In this document: piece after piece, positions 18,844-30,642 of the stretch
Layout: each line of letters starts with the position of its first letter
Numbering within the stretch: position 1 is the stretch's first letter
Assembly (NCBI GenBank): GCA_903834825.1
Contig: CAILKQ010000083.1
Coordinates: forward strand, 1-32,366
Reading direction: 5' to 3'
DNA: 32,366 nucleotides
Source of the DNA: an uncultured bacterium
GTDB taxonomy: Bacteria > Bacteroidota > Bacteroidia > Chitinophagales > Chitinophagaceae
Notes under the pieces: generated by a model
What the model was told of the DNA's origin: nothing
Seen by the model: the letters and a program-made list of their open reading frames with translations, nothing else
Database searches by the model: none
Made by a program: the position numbers and the translations under genes

Positions 18844-19938
18844 ATGCAAATGACTGAAAATTTTATCTACGTGTTGGTTCCTCATTTGGAAACCGATGAT
18901 GAAAACATCAGCTATTACTATGATTTTTCGCAGAGCATAGCAGAATACACCAAGTTGTTTGCCGCATGGAAAGTGGATTGGAAATGGCAACCCGTAACCA
19001 TGAAAGACCAGGAGCAGGTCATCAACACCATCATCGAAGAAAGTAAAACATCAACCAAACTGACACTGGTATTGAATTTGTGCGATGGCGATGAGGTAAA
19101 TGGTACACCAGGCATTGCTGTGGTAAGGATGCTCGAAAAAAATCGACTTGCTTACACCGGGGCAGAGGAATATTTTTACGGGATCACCACGTCCAAAGGA
19201 CCCATGAAAAAAGCCTTTGATCATGCGGGTGTACCCAACGCAAAATGGGCCATGATCAGTTCCATGGACGATGCGAATGAAAGCCTTTTTGAACAATTGG
19301 GCAGCCCCATCATCCTCAAGCCCGCTGTCTCAGGAGGCAGCATGGGCGTAGGTGTCAGGAATGTAGTGTACAATTTGGAGGAGTTGAAAATCCAGCTGGA
19401 AAAAATGCTGGAAGGTTATCGGGGATGGAACCTTTCCATAGATGGCGTGATTGCAGAGGAATTCATCAATGGCAGGGAGTTCACCACCCTGATCACAGGA
19501 TCGGCCCGGCATCCTGATCAGTGCAGGGTCTATGACCCTGTTGAAAGGGTTTTTCATCCATCCCTTCCAGCCCACGAAAAATTCCTTTCCTTTGACAGGC
19601 TTTGGGAAATCTATGAAGAGGAAGCCCCCATGCCAGCGGAAGAAAATTTTTACGACTACCATCCGGTAGACAAGGACCTTGCAGAAAAATTGCGTGCGCT
19701 TAGCATGCAGGCTTATGCCGCTGTCAATGGAACAGGCTATACCAGGATTGACCTGCGCATGGACCAGGAAACAGGAGCAATCAAGGTATTGGAAGTGAAT
19801 GCCCAATGCGGACTCAGCGAAGATGAAGACTATACTTCCATAGGCGCCATCCTGCGCGTCAACGGAACAAGTTTCGGGGAAATGATGCTTGAAATTTTTC
19901 AGGATGCCTTCACCAGAAAATCAAAAAAATGGGATTAA
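18844..19938 (+). CDS. ATP-grasp ligase, D-Ala-D-Ala ligase-like
   Basis: The 364-residue protein has the D-Ala-D-Ala ligase fold. Segments are NLCDGDEVNGTPG near 78-90, YTGAEEYFYGITTSKGPMKKAF near 104-125, the nucleotide-binding ILKPAVSGGSMGVGV near 157-171, EEFINGREFTTLI near 205-217, GYTRIDLR near 298-305, and the Mg-binding LEVNAQCG near 316-323. It forms an amide bond using ATP, with an amino acid or peptide acceptor. It departs from cell-wall Ddl: NLCDG replaces the usual LHG/EDG block and NAQCG replaces NTLPG. A ~55-residue acidic insert (res ~222-276) sits between the EEF and RID motifs. Its last 10 nt overlap the next gene's start, so the two ligases should be translated together. 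An alternative start at 18850 is also possible. Confidence 0.85.
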   Translation: MQMTENFIYVLVPHLETDDENISYYYDFSQSIAEYTKLFAAWKVDWKWQPVTMKDQEQVINTIIEESKTSTKLTLVLNLCDGDEVNGTPGIAVVRMLEKNRLAYTGAEEYFYGITTSKGPMKKAFDHAGVPNAKWAMISSMDDANESLFEQLGSPIILKPAVSGGSMGVGVRNVVYNLEELKIQLEKMLEGYRGWNLSIDGVIAEEFINGREFTTLITGSARHPDQCRVYDPVERVFHPSLPAHEKFLSFDRLWEIYEEEAPMPAEENFYDYHPVDKDLAEKLRALSMQAYAAVNGTGYTRIDLRMDQETGAIKVLEVNAQCGLSEDEDYTSIGAILRVNGTSFGEMMLEIFQDAFTRKSKKWD

Positions 19939-21320
19939 AGGTTTGTGTGCTACAGCCAGATTATTCAACCACTGCGGTGGATTACCAGTACTATGATCCC
20001 ATTCGGCAGCTCGCACCCTTGTTGCCTGACGCAACAGTGAATACGGTATTGCTCAACAAGCTGACCACCTACAAACAATTGCAGGCACTTAAACATGAGC
20101 AGTACGATATTTTTGTAAACCTCTGCGAAGGCTACCTCGAATGGGAAGTGCCTTCCGTTGATGTGATCCATTGCCTTGACCTGCTCAATCTCCCGTACAC
20201 CGGCCCGACTGCAACGCTTTATGATCCGCCCAAAGAACTCATGAAATATGTTGCCTACTGTGAAGGCATTCAATCTCCAGCCTACCACCTCATCAGTTCT
20301 GCAGCCGCAGCAGCCGATCTTGCAGAAACAGCAAATTTTCCGCTGTTCATCAAACCCGCAAAAGCCGGAGACAGCCTGGGCATTGACCATGGCTCGTTGG
20401 TGAACAACCATAGCGAACTGATGGCAAAAGTGAATGATATCATTGCAGTCTATCCTGAGTTGTTGCTGGAAGAATACATTGCAGGCAGGGAGTTTACCGT
20501 GCTGGTGGTGGCCAATCCAGATGGCAGGTCCTGCAGGTCTTTCAAGCCTGTTGAATATGTTTTCCCGGAAGGATTTGCGTTCAAAACCTATGCCTTGAAA
20601 ACCGCCGAACTCCACCCCGGCGCCAATATCCCCTGCAACGATCCTGCATTGGAAAAAGAACTCCGCGATGCAGCCGAAAAAATCTTCAATTGCTTTGGCG
20701 GCAAGGGATATTCAAGAATGGACTTCAGGGTGAAAGATGATAACAGTATCTATTTCCTTGAAGTGAATTTCACTTGCTCTGTTTTTTATACCGATGGATA
20801 TGAAGGCTCGGCTGATTTTATTTTGCAATATGATGGGGTTGGACAAGCAGGCTTTCTGCAACAGATCATTGAAGAGGGAATGGCAAGGCATGCGCGCAAA
20901 CAAAAGGCCTATGCCCTGCGCGGCAATTCCATTGCAGGTTTTGGCATCTATGCTTTGCGGCCCATCAAAAAAAACGAATGCCTTTACCAGGGAGAAGAGA
21001 GGGCCACAAGGGTGGTCACTAAAAAACATGTAGCAGCGCACTGGAACGAGGAAGAACAGATGAGGTTCAGGCAATATGCTTACCCACTTGGGGGCGATGC
21101 CTATGCATTTTGGGATGCCGAGCCCGGAGAATGGGCTCCCCAGAACCACAGCTGTGATGCCAATACAAGGATGGCAGGACTCAACATGATTGCCACCAAA
21201 GACATTGCAACAGGAGAAGAGCTCACCCTCGACTATGCCCTGTTTTTAGACAAGGAAATGGAACCCTTCCAGTGCCAATGTGGTTCCACCCAATGCAGGG
21301 GCATCATCAAGGGCATCTAA
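19929..21320 (+). CDS. ATP-grasp ligase fused to C-terminal SET-domain methyltransferase
   Basis: The 463-residue protein has two domains. Residues ~1-320 are an ATP-grasp ligase related to the gene before it: NLCEGYLEWEVPS near 64-76, YTGPTATLYDPPKELMKY near 90-107, FIKPAKAGDSLGIDHGS near 140-156, EEYIAGREFTVLV near 181-193, YSRMDFR near 261-267, and the metal-binding FLEVNFTC near 276-283. Residues ~325-463 are a SET domain: GFGIYALRPIKKNE near 337-350 (SAM-binding), NHSCDANT near 406-413, GEELTLDY near 429-436, and a post-SET zinc cluster with Cys449, Cys451 and Cys456 joining Cys409. Such SET domains methylate lysine side chains using S-adenosylmethionine. The frame is continuous, so the fusion is real, not a frameshift. 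Translationally coupled (10-nt overlap) to the preceding ligase. Substrate unknown. Confidence 0.88.
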   Translation: MGLKVCVLQPDYSTTAVDYQYYDPIRQLAPLLPDATVNTVLLNKLTTYKQLQALKHEQYDIFVNLCEGYLEWEVPSVDVIHCLDLLNLPYTGPTATLYDPPKELMKYVAYCEGIQSPAYHLISSAAAAADLAETANFPLFIKPAKAGDSLGIDHGSLVNNHSELMAKVNDIIAVYPELLLEEYIAGREFTVLVVANPDGRSCRSFKPVEYVFPEGFAFKTYALKTAELHPGANIPCNDPALEKELRDAAEKIFNCFGGKGYSRMDFRVKDDNSIYFLEVNFTCSVFYTDGYEGSADFILQYDGVGQAGFLQQIIEEGMARHARKQKAYALRGNSIAGFGIYALRPIKKNECLYQGEERATRVVTKKHVAAHWNEEEQMRFRQYAYPLGGDAYAFWDAEPGEWAPQNHSCDANTRMAGLNMIATKDIATGEELTLDYALFLDKEMEPFQCQCGSTQCRGIIKGI

Positions 21321-21362
21321 AAAAATACTTTGGTTTTCAGCAGAAAAACAACAAAATTATCA

Positions 21363-22652
21363 TCAACGCAATGCAGAGACATCTACACGGGTGGGTGTTT
21401 CCTTTCCTGAAACAATTCCTTTTGAGCTCAGGGCGATGGCGCGGATGATGGCCGCCATGTTCTGCATGTCCAAGGTGCCAATTTCATCGGATGCTTTGTG
21501 GTAATTCGCCTCGCTGTCCATCTTGGATGTGGAAATGGTATGTGCCGGAACACCAAGCCTGGCAAGGGTTGCATTGTCTGAGCGGTAGAACAATTGTTGG
21601 GTTGGATAGGGATCTGGATGGAAGGTAAAGTCCGTTCCCTTGAGGTTGTTTTGCAATATTTCGCCCATGTTCGTTTTCTCAAAACCGGTGATATAGGCAC
21701 TGTTCTTCCCCCACTTGCTTTCTGTTCCGATCATTTCAATGTTGAACATGGCCATCACCTGGGCAGGATCAAATTGTTTGGAAAAATAGGTTGCACCAAA
21801 ACCGCCAATCTCTTCCGCAGTGAAGGCAGCGAAAACCAGGGTGCGCTCGTTGTTGTTGAGTTTCTTGAAATACTTGGCCAGCATGATCATGGCTGTAGTG
21901 CCTGCTGCATCATCATTGGCACCGTTGTAAATGGAATCATTGTTCTCCATTTTCTTGCTGTTGATGCCCAGGTGATCATAATGCCCTGAAAAGATCACGT
22001 ATTCATTGGCCTTTGATTTACCCGGAATGATGCCCACCACATTGGACAAAGGCATTTCAGTTGTTTCCTGCTTCAATTCAACACTGAAAGATGAGGGTGC
22101 TTTGTCCACCAACAACATGATTACATTGGGCTGTGTTGAATACAACTGTGAACGCATCTGTGCAAACCTTCCAAACATATTGGCATGGGCGGTATCAACA
22201 AGTACTATTGTATTTTTCTTGGCGCCCAAGGCCTTTCTGGCCTCGGTGGGGAAATTCATTTTGGCGGTAATGGAAACCATTTCATACCCGGCATTGTTGT
22301 CTGCCATCAGCGATTTTGCAGGCGATACGATAATAGCTTTTTTTGCATCAAGCTCCACCCCATTGACCAGGATTTTCTGGGAGAAGGCTTTGGTGCGGAC
22401 CATTGAAAACGATTGCAGGTAAGTATTTCCGTTGTTCCATTCTTGCAGTCCGATTTTCTCAAATTCGGAAGCAATGAAGTTGGCGGCCTTTTCAATACCA
22501 GGGGTGAAAGTTCTTCTCCCTTGCATATCATCCGCAGAAAGGGTACGCTCAATGCGTTCCGTTTCCTTTATGCTGATCACATTGAGGGCTTTTTGCGCGA
22601 AGCTTGCCGAAGAAATTACCAGAAGAAAAAAGGCTGAAAATGTTTTTTTCAT
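21363..22652 (-). CDS. secreted M28-family zinc peptidase
   Basis: The 429-residue protein begins with the signal peptide MKKTFSAFFLLVISSASFAQ. A PA-like segment comes first, and the catalytic M28 domain runs from ~205: FSGHYDHLGI near 221 (Zn ligand His, Asp), GANDDAAGTTAMIMLA near 243 (bridging Asp), FTAEEIGGFG near 273 (catalytic Glu-Glu), FNIEMIGT near 300, and the final ligand His in VPAHTISTSKMD near 376. The usual Asp in the N-x-D-M-[IV]-G ligand position is a Glu here, which can still bind zinc. Likely an aminopeptidase or related exopeptidase in the periplasm or outside the cell. It converges on the ATP-grasp-SET gene with a 42-nt gap and no clear shared terminator, so a link to the ligases is possible but unproven. 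Confidence 0.9.
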   Translation of the reverse strand: MKKTFSAFFLLVISSASFAQKALNVISIKETERIERTLSADDMQGRRTFTPGIEKAANFIASEFEKIGLQEWNNGNTYLQSFSMVRTKAFSQKILVNGVELDAKKAIIVSPAKSLMADNNAGYEMVSITAKMNFPTEARKALGAKKNTIVLVDTAHANMFGRFAQMRSQLYSTQPNVIMLLVDKAPSSFSVELKQETTEMPLSNVVGIIPGKSKANEYVIFSGHYDHLGINSKKMENNDSIYNGANDDAAGTTAMIMLAKYFKKLNNNERTLVFAAFTAEEIGGFGATYFSKQFDPAQVMAMFNIEMIGTESKWGKNSAYITGFEKTNMGEILQNNLKGTDFTFHPDPYPTQQLFYRSDNATLARLGVPAHTISTSKMDSEANYHKASDEIGTLDMQNMAAIIRAIALSSKGIVSGKETPTRVDVSALR

Positions 22653-22738
22653 GACGGGGATTAAAATGCTTTTAAAAATTTGGGATAATCCCTTGGCTTA
22701 ATGATGGTTGCTTTCAGGAATTTCAGCGCCAAGATAAA

Positions 22739-22772
22739 ATAAAAAAGGCAGATGGAATGACCATCTGCCTTT
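22739..22772 (-). terminator. terminator of the susC-susD operon
   Basis: GGCAGATGG (22747-22755) and CCATCTGCC (22761-22769) form a 9-bp stem around AATGA. On the minus strand the hairpin is followed by a T-run, 21 nt after the susD-type stop. It lies before the M28 peptidase gene, so that gene needs its own promoter. Confidence 0.85.
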
Positions 22773-22792
22773 GAATACGGTATAGGTGAATA

Positions 22793-24481
22793 TCAATAGC
22801 CAGGATTCTGCTTCAAATAGCCAGGAAGGTTGGATGCACCATCGATGGCTGTTTGGGGAATCGGGAAAACGCGCTTGTTCTTGTCTGTGCTGGCTTTCTC
22901 TGTCCAGGTTGATTCAAATTTTCCAAAACGAACCATGTCCGTTCTTCTTTGAAGTTCCCAGTACAATTCGAATCCACGCTCCCTGAAAAGCTGATCCAGG
23001 TTTACTGCGGTGAGGGCCCTGCCCACTCCGGTTGCAGTGCGGGATGTTCTTACTGCATTAACATCAGTAAGCGCGGCAGCAGCATCACCCTTGCGCAGCC
23101 TGGCTTCGGCACGCATCAGGTAAACATCACCCAAACGAACAATGGGAATATCTGCTTCGCCAAAATTTCTTCCACTGACTGATTTTTTTCCAAATTCGAA
23201 TTTCAATACACGGAAACCAGTGGCATAATCACTGCCAACTGTTGTAAAATCAATTTTTTCTGTATGCAGTACTGGTGTTGTAGGCCTGTTCCTGGTGTTG
23301 TTGAACAACCTGCCCACCTTGAATTTGCCGTCAGGGCATTTTTCAAAAACACCGGCAGTCCTGATCAAACCATACTGCTGTCCACGCAAAATACCCCTGT
23401 CGATCCTGTAAGAAGCAGCATCATAGCAAGCTTGCTGTGTTACAGGGTCTACGGTAATGTTCTTTTGGTAAAACCTGGGGTCTGCAACAGCAGGATCTGT
23501 AGGACTATACGCATCTACCCAGGTCTTGTAAAAATCTGGAGTGATGCCAGGACCGTCGGTTCCGTTGGCGCCAGTAAAGGATGGCAAAGGAAACTGATCT
23601 CCTGAAAGGGAGAAATAGGCAAGCCTGTTATGACCATTCAGGTCTGCACGCTGGTCAACGGCAAAAACCAATTCCTTGTTGGTATTGTTTTCGTCATTGA
23701 ATATTGCCCAGTAGTCAGGAGACAATGCATATTGGCCAGATGAGATGATTTTAGAGGTATACTCTATCACCTTATCCATGTCCTCATTTTTGAAAGTAAA
23801 GGTAGCAGCATAGCGATCGCGGTAAACTGCAGCATTCAGGTGAAGCTTGGCAAGCAATCCCCAAACGCCAGCCTTGGTGAGGCGGCCCGGGCCTGTGGTA
23901 TTGTCCAGCAAAGGCTCCACTTCAAGCAATACCTTTTTGAGGTACTCCACTGCTTCTTCTCCACGGACAATTTTTGATGTAGCACCTGGATCTTCCTTAA
24001 CAAAGATCACACCCCAAAGATCAAGCACCAGCATGTTATAAAATGCATACATGCCTTTGGCCTCTGCAATATATTTTGCGGCATTTGGATCTTTGCTGCC
24101 TTGTAGAGAACTGATGGCAGAAACAGCACGGGAAAGGCTTTGCGTCAATGGGTTCCAGGTATTTCTTACCGGCGCATTGTTGCTGGTGGTTTGGTGCCTG
24201 TGCAAGTCAAGGTAGATTCCATTATCACCCCAATCTGTTCCACCACGGTAAGGAAGAATGGCCTCGTCTGTGGTGATTTCCTGAAGGGCAAAAAGACCAG
24301 TATGGATAAAAATATTGGGCAATTGTGCATAGACCGGGGCAATGGTTCCGTCTGCAATCTGTTTTTCTGTCAAACCAGTAACAGATGACTCATCGAGAAC
24401 AGTCTCCTTTAGCTTGGTACAGCTTTCTGTCATGGACAACAAGCCCAAAACAAAGAGCAGGGTTAATATTCTATTTTTCAT
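22793..24481 (-). CDS. SusD/RagB-family nutrient-binding outer-membrane lipoprotein
   Basis: The 562-residue lipoprotein has the leader MKNRILTLLFVLGLLSMTESC with Cys21 as the lipidation site, followed by TPR-like helices: TIAPVYAQLPNIFIHTGLFALQEITTDEA near 47-75, RAVSAISSLQGS near 116, and LWGLLAKLHLNAAVYRDR-type segments near 205. The SusD C-terminal block IPIVRLGDVYLMRAEARLRKGDAAAALTDVNAVR near 465-498 and the FRERGFELYWELQRRTDMVRF segment near 518-538 are clear. It caps the SusC-type channel and binds the nutrient at the cell surface. It begins 10 nt after the SusC-type gene and shares the terminator at 22739-22772. No degradative enzyme, sigma or anti-sigma pair is next to it, so the glycan or peptide substrate cannot be deduced. 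Confidence 0.94.
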   Translation of the reverse strand: MKNRILTLLFVLGLLSMTESCTKLKETVLDESSVTGLTEKQIADGTIAPVYAQLPNIFIHTGLFALQEITTDEAILPYRGGTDWGDNGIYLDLHRHQTTSNNAPVRNTWNPLTQSLSRAVSAISSLQGSKDPNAAKYIAEAKGMYAFYNMLVLDLWGVIFVKEDPGATSKIVRGEEAVEYLKKVLLEVEPLLDNTTGPGRLTKAGVWGLLAKLHLNAAVYRDRYAATFTFKNEDMDKVIEYTSKIISSGQYALSPDYWAIFNDENNTNKELVFAVDQRADLNGHNRLAYFSLSGDQFPLPSFTGANGTDGPGITPDFYKTWVDAYSPTDPAVADPRFYQKNITVDPVTQQACYDAASYRIDRGILRGQQYGLIRTAGVFEKCPDGKFKVGRLFNNTRNRPTTPVLHTEKIDFTTVGSDYATGFRVLKFEFGKKSVSGRNFGEADIPIVRLGDVYLMRAEARLRKGDAAAALTDVNAVRTSRTATGVGRALTAVNLDQLFRERGFELYWELQRRTDMVRFGKFESTWTEKASTDKNKRVFPIPQTAIDGASNLPGYLKQNPGY

Positions 24482-28751: not shown

Positions 28752-30419
28752 TTAATGCCCAGGTGGCGAAATTGGTAGACGCACTGTGTTCAGGTCGCAG
28801 CGTTCGCAAGGATGTGCTGGTTCGAATCCAGTCCTGGGCACTTCGTTAGATTTAAGCCGATTCTTTAAAGAATCGGCTTTTTTGTTTTCTGATGAATCGC
28901 CCGCCAGCAAAGGGATTGCCGCGAATAAACTGTTTACTCTAGAAGTTCGAACTACCCCTTTTTGTTTATTATACAGGATTCCCTCTGGGAATATCAACTT
29001 CTGTAGTTGCTGCTTACCCTCATATTTAGCTGTAACCCATGACTGGCTTATGTTTTCAGCAATTGTCAAACATTTTTCAACCGCATTATCAAAGTTCGAA
29101 CTATTAAAAGCACTTGTATCAGATTCCTTACTTAATTCAACGATTTCTTCCTTGATCTGACCCGCATGTTTGATGTAGATTTCCTCACTAATCTGATCGT
29201 TAATAAACTTTTTTTCTACTTTTTCGAGCAGTGATTTTTTTTCTGCAATTTTCTTTTTCGCCTGGGTTGCATCTTTGCCAAGCTCTATTAGCTTTTCTTT
29301 AAGTTTTACTTTCAGCGTAGTTGCAATTTGACTTCTTAATGCGGGCTTACACTCATATCCACTGAGTAGCGTTACAAAAAGTTCATTGAGTTTATTGGCG
29401 CTAACATTCACTGGGTTTTGTCCAGCCTTAATTTTATAGTACCAATTCCCCTTTGTCTTGTATCCTGTAAATGGCATGAGACTTAGTTCATCTTTTGCAA
29501 AAGTTTTCAGAGGCAATTCATCATGACGGGATACTTTGGGTACCCCAGCAACGGGAACATCATTTAAGACATCCTGCACGGTCATAAAAGTTTTAATATC
29601 AATGAGAGGTGGATGTTGACCTTTGATCAACTTTCCTCCAACAAGTTTTCCTGTAACAAAGCCAGCACAAAATGGATTGGAGAAAACATAGCGAAAACTC
29701 TTTGCGGTTATCTCTACCCCTCGTTTGCGAAGGTATTCTATCACCTCTGCAAATTGGTACCTTTTTTCAGCTATCATCTGAAAACCCTTCTTAATCTGTT
29801 TGCCTTCATCTGTAATGATATACTCATGAAAACAAGCCCTGTGTTTTGGCTTTAGGTTCTTATAGCCAAGTGGTGTAGCATAGGGCCAATAACCCTTTAA
29901 CATGACTTCGCGTGTATTGATGGTAGTGCGGTCACTTTTTAGGCGGTTATCAAAGTTATTGAGCATGTGAAAGAAATTCTCCTGCAATCTTCCAATTGCA
30001 GTTGATGTATCCAGATCTTGGGTAACTGATTTTACAGTTATACCTTCTTTACTAAGTTCTTCACTGAGATGAGATGCTGCAGCCCCAGTTCGGGAGAACC
30101 TGTCATAGTTAAATACAATAATTATGGAGATCAGCTTATTTTTCCTTACATATTCCAACATTCTATTGAACTCCTTGCGTCCATCATTTTTTGCACTCTC
30201 ATAAGTCCCACCAAAATACTCCCTGATGGTTACTCCATTATTTTTTGCATAGGTATCACAGTATTTAAGCTGAACTTCCAAGCTTCCATTATTTTGAGCC
30301 TGCTCCTGACTACTTACCCGTGTATAGACAACTGCATCGCCACCCCGTTTTTTGGAAGGATCCTTATAGCGATTAAGGGTTAACTGTTCAAGAGCCGTTT
30401 GCATGTTTTCTTTTTTCAT
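28752..30419 (-). CDS. large serine recombinase (resolvase/recombinase family), C-terminus read through antisense tRNA-Leu
   Basis: The 555-residue protein catalyses site-specific DNA integration and excision. The resolvase catalytic domain occupies ~28-175, with VYTRVSSQEQ near 31-40 (nucleophile Ser36), FNYDRFSRTG near 104-113, and QENFFHMLNNFDNRLKSDRT near 147-166. The recombinase domain is near 190-290 (GYWPYATPLGYKN, FSNPFCAGFVTGK). The zinc-ribbon region (FTGYKTKGNWYYKIKAGQNPVNVSANKLNELF, ~318-350) keeps the framework but no Cys, as in many Bacteroidota relatives, and a coiled coil follows near 375-425. The last ~30 codons lie antisense to tRNA-Leu and its terminator, giving a GFEPAHPCERCDL-type tail, so the native end was probably different in the circular element. 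Start 30419 is preferred; 30404 is possible. It overlaps the small gene upstream by 32 nt. Confidence 0.88.
   Translation of the reverse strand: MKKENMQTALEQLTLNRYKDPSKKRGGDAVVYTRVSSQEQAQNNGSLEVQLKYCDTYAKNNGVTIREYFGGTYESAKNDGRKEFNRMLEYVRKNKLISIIIVFNYDRFSRTGAAASHLSEELSKEGITVKSVTQDLDTSTAIGRLQENFFHMLNNFDNRLKSDRTTINTREVMLKGYWPYATPLGYKNLKPKHRACFHEYIITDEGKQIKKGFQMIAEKRYQFAEVIEYLRKRGVEITAKSFRYVFSNPFCAGFVTGKLVGGKLIKGQHPPLIDIKTFMTVQDVLNDVPVAGVPKVSRHDELPLKTFAKDELSLMPFTGYKTKGNWYYKIKAGQNPVNVSANKLNELFVTLLSGYECKPALRSQIATTLKVKLKEKLIELGKDATQAKKKIAEKKSLLEKVEKKFINDQISEEIYIKHAGQIKEEIVELSKESDTSAFNSSNFDNAVEKCLTIAENISQSWVTAKYEGKQQLQKLIFPEGILYNKQKGVVRTSRVNSLFAAIPLLAGDSSENKKADSLKNRLKSNEVPRTGFEPAHPCERCDLNTVRLPISPPGH
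28757..28840 (+). tRNA. tRNA-Leu(CAG)
   Basis: An 84-nt class II tRNA with acceptor stem GCCCAGG/CCTGGGC and discriminator A. The D arm is GGCGAAATTGGTAGACGC, and the anticodon stem CTGTG/CGCAG encloses loop TTCAGGT, giving anticodon CAG. The variable arm is long and the T loop is TTCGAAT. No CCA is encoded. No consensus promoter is visible directly upstream, inside the GIY-YIG gene. Confidence 0.96.
28854..28883 (+). terminator. tRNA-Leu terminator (26-bp perfect palindrome plus T-run)
   Basis: AAGCCGATTCTTT and its exact complement form a 13-bp stem (28854-28879), followed by TTTT. It lies 13 nt after the tRNA and inside the coding frame of the opposing recombinase, whose C-terminal codons it supplies. 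Confidence 0.85.
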
Positions 30420-30642
30420 GGTGTATTTCGTTTTGCAGGTAGATGTCAATGATTATTTCTGAAAATAAATTAAGCTGTTCTTCCATGCTTAGATGTTCCG
30501 AAGTATTATTTTCTAAAATAATATTCGTTTCAGCGGTCGTGGTAAGAATGTTACCTAATGTTGACTTTTTTGATTTCCCTATTTTTCTTATCTGTTCATT
30601 GTGTTGTTGTAAATTTAATTGTTCATGAAATTTGATTTTCAT
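30388..30642 (-). CDS. small protein upstream of and overlapping the serine recombinase
   Basis: The 84-residue protein is of unrecognised family. The start at 30642 (MKIKFHEQLNL) is preferred over an ATG 10 codons earlier. It is charged and mostly helical by composition (EQLNLQQHNEQIRKIGKSKK, then EEQLNLFSEIIIDIYLQNE), without a signal peptide or membrane segment. Its stop overlaps the recombinase start by 32 nt, so the two are likely translated together; it may be a recombination directionality or control factor, which is an inference from position alone. It lies 75 nt downstream of the MerR-like gene on the same strand, so regulator, small protein and recombinase may form one transcript. 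Confidence 0.65.
   Translation of the reverse strand: MKIKFHEQLNLQQHNEQIRKIGKSKKSTLGNILTTTAETNIILENNTSEHLSMEEQLNLFSEIIIDIYLQNEIHHEKRKHANGS

Follow-up and report, generated by a model that had tools for sequence, protein, structure and literature searches.

What would a bacterium make with two ATP-grasp ligases and a SET-domain methyltransferase encoded side by side? The question is raised by a 32,366-nucleotide (nt) stretch of DNA from an uncultured member of the Chitinophagaceae (Bacteroidota; Chitinophagales), comprising positions 1 to 32,366 of contig CAILKQ010000083.1 in assembly GCA_903834825.1 and called the window below. It carries two overlapping genes for ligases resembling D-Ala-D-Ala ligase (Ddl). 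The first gene is designated AGa, the second, which is fused to a SET domain, AGSET, and a small free-standing SET protein of relatives SETa. A preliminary description, made from the letters and open reading frames (ORFs) of the window, had proposed that the pair forms an amide bond and methylates a lysine, and pointed to a modified peptide or protein tag. We come down, by a modest degree of preference, on the side of a ribosome-independent biosynthetic unit whose product would be a small amide or peptide, methylated and probably exported.

Two Ddl-like ligases, the second with a SET domain

The genes and domains of the pair are placed as follows.

18844..19938, forward strand: AGa, 364 amino acids (aa), Ddl-fold ATP-grasp ligase
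19929..21320, forward strand: AGSET, 463 aa, Ddl-fold ATP-grasp ligase fused to a SET methyltransferase
19929..20888, forward strand: ATP-grasp part of AGSET, residues 1-320
20895..21317, forward strand: SET part of AGSET, residues 323-463
19929..19938, forward strand: overlap of the AGa and AGSET genes, 10 nt

Pfam and the ORF coordinates confirm two Ddl-like proteins with genes overlapping by 10 nt, and an overlap of exactly this length recurs in 10 of the 76 AGa-AGSET gene pairs called among relatives. Dala_Dala_lig_C (PF07478) scores 65.8 bits in AGa and 75.6 bits in AGSET, with a cut-off of 24. The SET domain reported earlier for the second protein is likewise confirmed: SET (PF00856) scores 40.5 bits over residues 337-436, above its curated cut-off of 22.4, and the motifs NHSC (406-409) and ELTLDY (431-436) and the post-SET cysteines (449, 451 and 456) are in place. 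The ligase halves of the two proteins are distantly homologous (hhalign probability 99.9, 27% identity). Both proteins match the NCBIfam Ddl model TIGR01205, at 80.8 and 87.4 bits, far under the cut-off of 245.65. Where Ddl has its LHG block, whose HG loop we take to be a substrate-loop block, AGa reads NLCDG (78-82) and AGSET NLCEG (64-68); at the position of the N-T-x-P-G block they read NAQC (319-322) and NFTC (280-283). Both Ddl blocks are missing, as had been noted, and the forms N-[LI]-C-[DE]-G and N-x-x-C stand in their place in all aligned sequences.

Conservation of active-site residues

Residues were counted in 36 AGa sequences, in 42 of the 81 AGSET sequences at hand, and in 24 of 55 SETa sequences, with the window's proteins included for AGa and AGSET. 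Invariant in AGa are K118, K122, K159, E205, E212, R301, D303, E317, and N319; by correspondence with Ddl we take the three lysines to contact the ATP phosphates, R301 the substrate carboxylate, and D303, E317, and N319 magnesium. The ligase part of AGSET keeps K102, K106, K142, E181, E188, R263, D265, E278, and N280 in every sequence, residues that by alignment to Ddl presumably serve the ATP phosphates, magnesium, or the substrate carboxylate. In its SET part, G337, G339, N406, H407, C409, Y436, C449, C451, and C456 are invariant (S408 was left uncounted), with G337-x-G339 presumably the S-adenosylmethionine (SAM) motif and Y436 at what we take to be the position of the SET active-site tyrosine. 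The first replaced block is invariant at N, C, D/E, and G, and the second at N and C, in all 36 AGa and 42 AGSET sequences. The positions checked that vary are E182 of AGSET (38 of 42) and G164 (35 of 36) and E206 (10 of 36) of AGa. In SETa, NHxC, the tyrosine, and the three post-SET cysteines are invariant. The preliminary description had named loss of ATP- and SAM-contact residues in a structural model as evidence that would count against it; in the aligned sequences these residues are kept.

Predicted models are confident, with a predicted local distance difference test (pLDDT) score of 87.9 and a predicted template modelling score (pTM) of 0.89 for AGa, and 86.1 and 0.83 for AGSET. The AGa model superposes on Ddl structure 8evv_A with Z 30.2 and a root-mean-square deviation (rmsd) of 2.3 over 307 aligned residues, and residues 1-321 of AGSET on 8evx_B with Z 27.5, rmsd 2.9, and 287 aligned. 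The best 50 structural matches of the AGSET model are all Ddl chains, and the SET assignment rests on sequence. When the whole AGSET profile was run against the PDB, the threshold (E <= 1e-18) was too strict and no match was returned.

Synonymous sites are near saturation (0.70-0.97 differing) and non-synonymous sites differ at 0.17-0.28 in five comparisons for each gene, with the SET part behaving likewise. The two genes are under purifying selection and probably encode active enzymes.

Pairing and distribution in the order

Of 298 genomes of the order, 39 carry an AGSET relative with both domains, and AGa occurs in the identical set of 39. In addition, G065 has a shorter relative, 28% identical, whose match covers the ligase part only. 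Throughout the 39, AGa lies upstream of AGSET on one contig and one strand, with the two matches -7 to 204 nt apart in 38 genomes and 1060 nt apart in G239. Because each gene is found in this many genomes, and because non-synonymous difference is low where synonymous difference is saturated, the pair cannot be regarded as a chance arrangement.

A scan of named genomes gave 377 related loci. Neighbourhoods were taken from the best 80 of the 377, and since these are the most similar ones, the neighbourhood counts below lean to Chitinophagaceae. ORFs were chosen by script, greedily by length, and four loci in which AGa had been missed were rechecked by tblastn. AGa was recovered in L091 and partially in L058, while L096 is not judgeable for AGa because of a contig edge; in L086, tblastn found no AGa in the 8 kb upstream of AGSET. 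AGa therefore precedes AGSET in 78 of 79 judgeable loci, with one gene between them in L062 and two in L074. Among close relatives, then, the 364-aa ligase does accompany AGSET as had been predicted (39 of 39 genomes; 78 of 79 loci), and the two genes are not routinely apart; the word "always" fails in distant relatives, described below.

Operon partners

The AGa-AGSET pair belongs to a larger operon, with SETa and transporter parts in relatives, so that two ligases and one SET domain, the unit first described, are incomplete as an account of it. Of the 80 loci, 55 encode a free-standing SETa (about 165 aa); its gene immediately precedes AGa in 54, and in 50 of those 54 the gap is -32 to 18 nt. 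One more locus, from a single metagenome-assembled genome (L109:6261-7931), encodes SETa and AGa as a single 556-aa protein with SET and Dala_Dala_lig_C domains. An ATP-binding cassette (ABC) transporter membrane protein of about 300 aa follows AGSET directly in 39 of 80 loci; the one member scanned matches Pfam ABC_membrane_3.

In the window's clade (L041-L051) the operon is without SETa, and the upstream genes encode a DUF1295 protein in 9 of 11 loci and an amino-acid permease in 7 of 11 (Pfam on L041). Upstream of the window's own pair, on the opposite strand, is a PepSY_TM protein, and neither the DUF1295 protein nor the permease adjoins the pair. Two of the four genomes of the window's genus (G261 and G291) carry SETa elsewhere in the genome. 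In the window's own genome, which is 93.5% complete, the fused SET is the only SET domain.

The gene downstream of the pair is a separate matter.

21363-22652, reverse strand: M28 peptidase gene, convergent to AGSET in the window

The preliminary description had called this peptidase convergent and not co-transcribed, which is right for the window; of the closest named loci, 8 reach far enough downstream to be judged, and in 7 of these the peptidase gene is on the AGSET strand and directly downstream. It was not seen directly downstream of AGSET in the remaining 69 loci. Convergent in the window and unseen there in those 69, the peptidase is not counted as a pathway partner. By reading, L049 has the same SusD/SusC-like genes after the peptidase, so that the M28 gene alone looks inverted in place in the window; the longest inverted repeat within 21200-22900 is 24 nt at 71%, and its arms do not flank the gene on both sides.

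Kinship of the SET domains

SET domains had been called uncommon in bacteria. In this order they are not: 234 of 296 genomes carry at least one, those listed mostly in frames of about 125-190 aa, and rarity was dropped as an argument.

Against solved structures, the SETa profile has BurB, of the Burkholderia dimethylsulfoniopropionate (DMSP)/malleicyprol pathway, as its best match (70 bits, 1.3e-18), the next SET scoring 37 bits. For the fused SET, BurB (4.2e-12) and the histone-lysine enzyme KMT2A (5.5e-12) tie, so that among solved structures BurB ranks first for SETa and shares first place for the fused domain. BurB too is a small bacterial SET protein with a Cys-rich C-terminal stretch. 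The histidine aligns at BurB chain position 93, which we take as the adenine-binding His93, but both SETs here read NHSC and BurB reads LHSC. In the accessible part of the source, BurB differs further in being unfused and in having non-ribosomal peptide synthetase-polyketide synthase (NRPS-PKS) and DMSP genes, rather than ATP-grasp ligases, as its partners.

According to the part of the enzymological paper available, BurB methylates free methionine and not two other thioethers, acts by proximity and desolvation with methionine held through main-chain contacts, and keeps more than 60% of its activity when Tyr124 is changed to Phe (PMC12542666). Because of that last result, the conserved tyrosine cannot tell N- from S-methylation. 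Kinship with BurB favours a small substrate for SETa, and the likely target of the fused SET is tied between the BurB and KMT2A types. Of the proposal that one unit forms an amide bond and methylates a lysine, the first half keeps its footing, with two ligases and a SET domain present and their sites kept, and the lysine is weakened by the SETa-BurB kinship and by the tie.

Distant relatives

Across 395 genomes of the phylum, AGSET is found at E <= 1e-40 in 17, of which 12 lie outside the order. AGa is missing in 11 of these 12. Nine of the 12 belong to one genus (family f38, genus g183), where the AGa profile finds only AGSET itself. These are probably green sulfur bacteria, judging from BchD and BchI beside one of the loci. 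SETa is directly upstream of AGSET in all nine (one match is partial). Eight of the nine have a further small SET beyond, the ninth (G434) ending with its contig. Between AGSET and the further SET is an ABC protein in all three loci viewed with enough flank, and the one such locus scanned with Pfam (L137) encodes a complete ABC exporter.

The other three differ from one another. G497 has AGSET alone, with SETa and AGa together on another contig, AGSET stands alone in G621, and in G496 (L135) it precedes an FGase-MATCAP-GSH-S operon by 441 nt. The core that recurs most widely in these genomes is thus SETa with AGSET, and AGa is the partner in the Bacteroidia relatives. The operon in L135 (2041-5872) encodes FGase, MATCAP/QEGLA (DUF1704), and a glutathione-synthetase-like ATP-grasp protein, a bacterial gene set in which an ATP-grasp ligase stands next to a relative of the tubulin tyrosine carboxypeptidase.

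Searches for a precursor, a defence role, and a mobile origin

The preliminary description had suggested looking for conserved small Lys-containing genes near homologues. Small ORFs were clustered from 73 upstream regions of 500 nt and 76 downstream regions of 400 nt, and no family of at least 6 loci lies outside called genes beside the operon in these regions. Clusters of at least 6 loci lie mostly inside called genes, such as those for DUF1295, the ABC protein, and the M28 peptidase; this does not hold for two upstream clusters, each of 5 loci. A precursor of a ribosomally synthesized and post-translationally modified peptide (RiPP), such as a graspetide, was therefore not found as a common neighbour in a search that covered the flanks only.

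PADLOC defence models matched 0 families for AGa, AGSET, one SETa, and one ABC protein (E <= 0.01), and a defence system was rejected. A phage or plasmid origin was also rejected: none of 92 pattern matches in viral_contigs is an AGSET relative, and of the matching phage (10) and plasmid (219) records, none among the matches listed (5 and 20) covers 80% of AGSET. At window positions 28752-30449 there is an ORF that by reading resembles a large serine recombinase, with more ORFs to the window end, perhaps the edge of a mobile element.

A proposed pathway

The pathway that we infer would run as follows. AGa and the ligase half of AGSET would each use ATP to activate a carboxylate as an acyl phosphate, which would be joined to an amino group to give a short peptide or amino-acid amide without a ribosome or NRPS. 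The SET half of AGSET would methylate that same molecule with SAM as donor, on nitrogen or, as in BurB, on a thioether sulfur. In many relatives SETa would add a second methylation, and the ABC-type membrane protein, or the complete ABC exporter of distant relatives, would move the product out. The fusion and the overlap of the genes would keep ligation coupled to methylation, and they suggest an intermediate common to both. We put forward more tentatively, at slightly less than even confidence, that Bacteroidota and probably green sulfur bacteria have a new type of ribosome- and NRPS-independent pathway in which SET domains are small-molecule methyltransferases fused to ATP-grasp ligases, with amino-acid coupling, one or two methylations, and export in one short operon.

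Several observations weigh against this reading. The substrate loops of the ATP-grasp halves differ from those of Ddl, which leaves room for a protein or other large acceptor. The fused SET scores as well on KMT2A as on BurB, its match to BurB spans only 56 positions, and SETa by reading is without GxG where the fused SET has it. AGa is absent from most distant AGSET genomes, as noted. The ABC protein has no ATPase domain in the sole member scanned, and it is unseen in 41 of 80 loci, including the window's clade, some of these loci being cut by contig ends. At E <= 1e-8, SETa was found neither in the window's genome (G000) nor in its congener G263, so it is not needed everywhere.

Characterised SET domains mostly methylate protein lysines, and the fused SET is level with KMT2A by score. 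The ligases might therefore add amino acids to a protein or ribosomal peptide, in the manner of TTL or RimK, and the SET domain methylate its lysine. In eukaryotes, TTLL12 carries a SET-like domain together with the ATP-grasp domain of TTL, as stated in the accessible part of its description (PMC3520985), and AGSET of L135 has as its neighbour MATCAP, named after tyrosine carboxypeptidase. We nevertheless consider such a tag unlikely, and this part of the preliminary description is weakened: for the ATP-grasp halves, Ddl models give better scores than RimK models, and the Arg that in Ddl binds a free amino-acid carboxylate is kept, the flanks searched hold no small-ORF family of at least 6 loci outside called genes, SETa is nearest to a free-amino-acid methyltransferase, and there are transporter parts in the operon.

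Less probable again is cryptic methylation, in which methylation by the SET proteins would yield a sulfonium or N-methyl intermediate on which the ligases build and which a later step removes or rearranges. The idea has a precedent in BurB, which SETa resembles and whose S-methylmethionine serves cryptic methylation in the malleicyprol pathway, as given in the part of the source available (PMC7496086); in beta-lactone peptides, ATP-grasp peptide assembly is found beside cryptic carboxyl methylation (PMC11427300, accessible part). By reading, however, no obvious removing or rearranging enzyme is among the 40 most frequent neighbour families, an amidohydrolase-like family at 11 loci being set aside.

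A cell-wall or surface role, with a modified Ddl making an unusual peptidoglycan dipeptide, has the Ddl fold and Ddl as best database names in its favour but is very improbable and was rejected on the TIGR01205 scores, the replaced substrate loops, and the patchy distribution (only 39 of 298 genomes of the order), and no wall gene stood out by reading among the neighbour families listed, all of which bears out the earlier judgement that cell-wall synthesis is unlikely.

Relation to known systems

Returning to the small-molecule pathway, AGa and AGSET share with Ddl the fold (Z 27-30), the ATP and magnesium residues, and the carboxylate-binding Arg; unlike Ddl, they have the cysteine-containing loops and sub-cut-off scores described above, occur as a pair, and, in AGSET, carry a SET fusion. 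Natural-product pathways also use stand-alone ATP-grasp enzymes as peptide ligases, BacD and MysD among them. CysD, of the cystargolide pathway, likewise couples free amino acids or small peptides off the ribosome with an ATP-grasp enzyme, in a pathway with a methylation step; in contrast to AGSET, the accessible part of its source mentions no SET domain (PMC11427300).

TTLL12, like AGSET, combines SET-type and ATP-grasp-type domains in a single chain. As far as the available part of its description goes, its SET-like domain is N-terminal, is nearest to SETD3/4/6, has lost critical residues, and showed no activity in vitro (PMC3520985). AGSET differs in that its ATP-grasp domain is of Ddl type rather than TTL type, its SET domain is C-terminal, and the catalytic residues are kept. 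The SET-then-ligase order of the single-chain protein in L109 resembles that of TTLL12.

A literature search, with subscription journals mostly outside it, found no precedent for the ATP-grasp-SET architecture beyond TTLL12, and in a review of bacterial SET proteins ATP-grasp does not occur. The families are known; as far as the searched literature shows, the ATP-grasp-SET fusion and its operon are undescribed.

If the small-molecule reading is true, AGSET would unite in one covalent chain a SET enzyme and the ligase of its own biosynthetic pathway, and the metabolic chemistry of bacterial SET domains would extend beyond BurB and its kin, which would bear on the roles of SET domains outside chromatin. 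The operon type, present in 39 of the 298 genomes sampled from the order, would then be a compact, self-contained source of methylated peptides.

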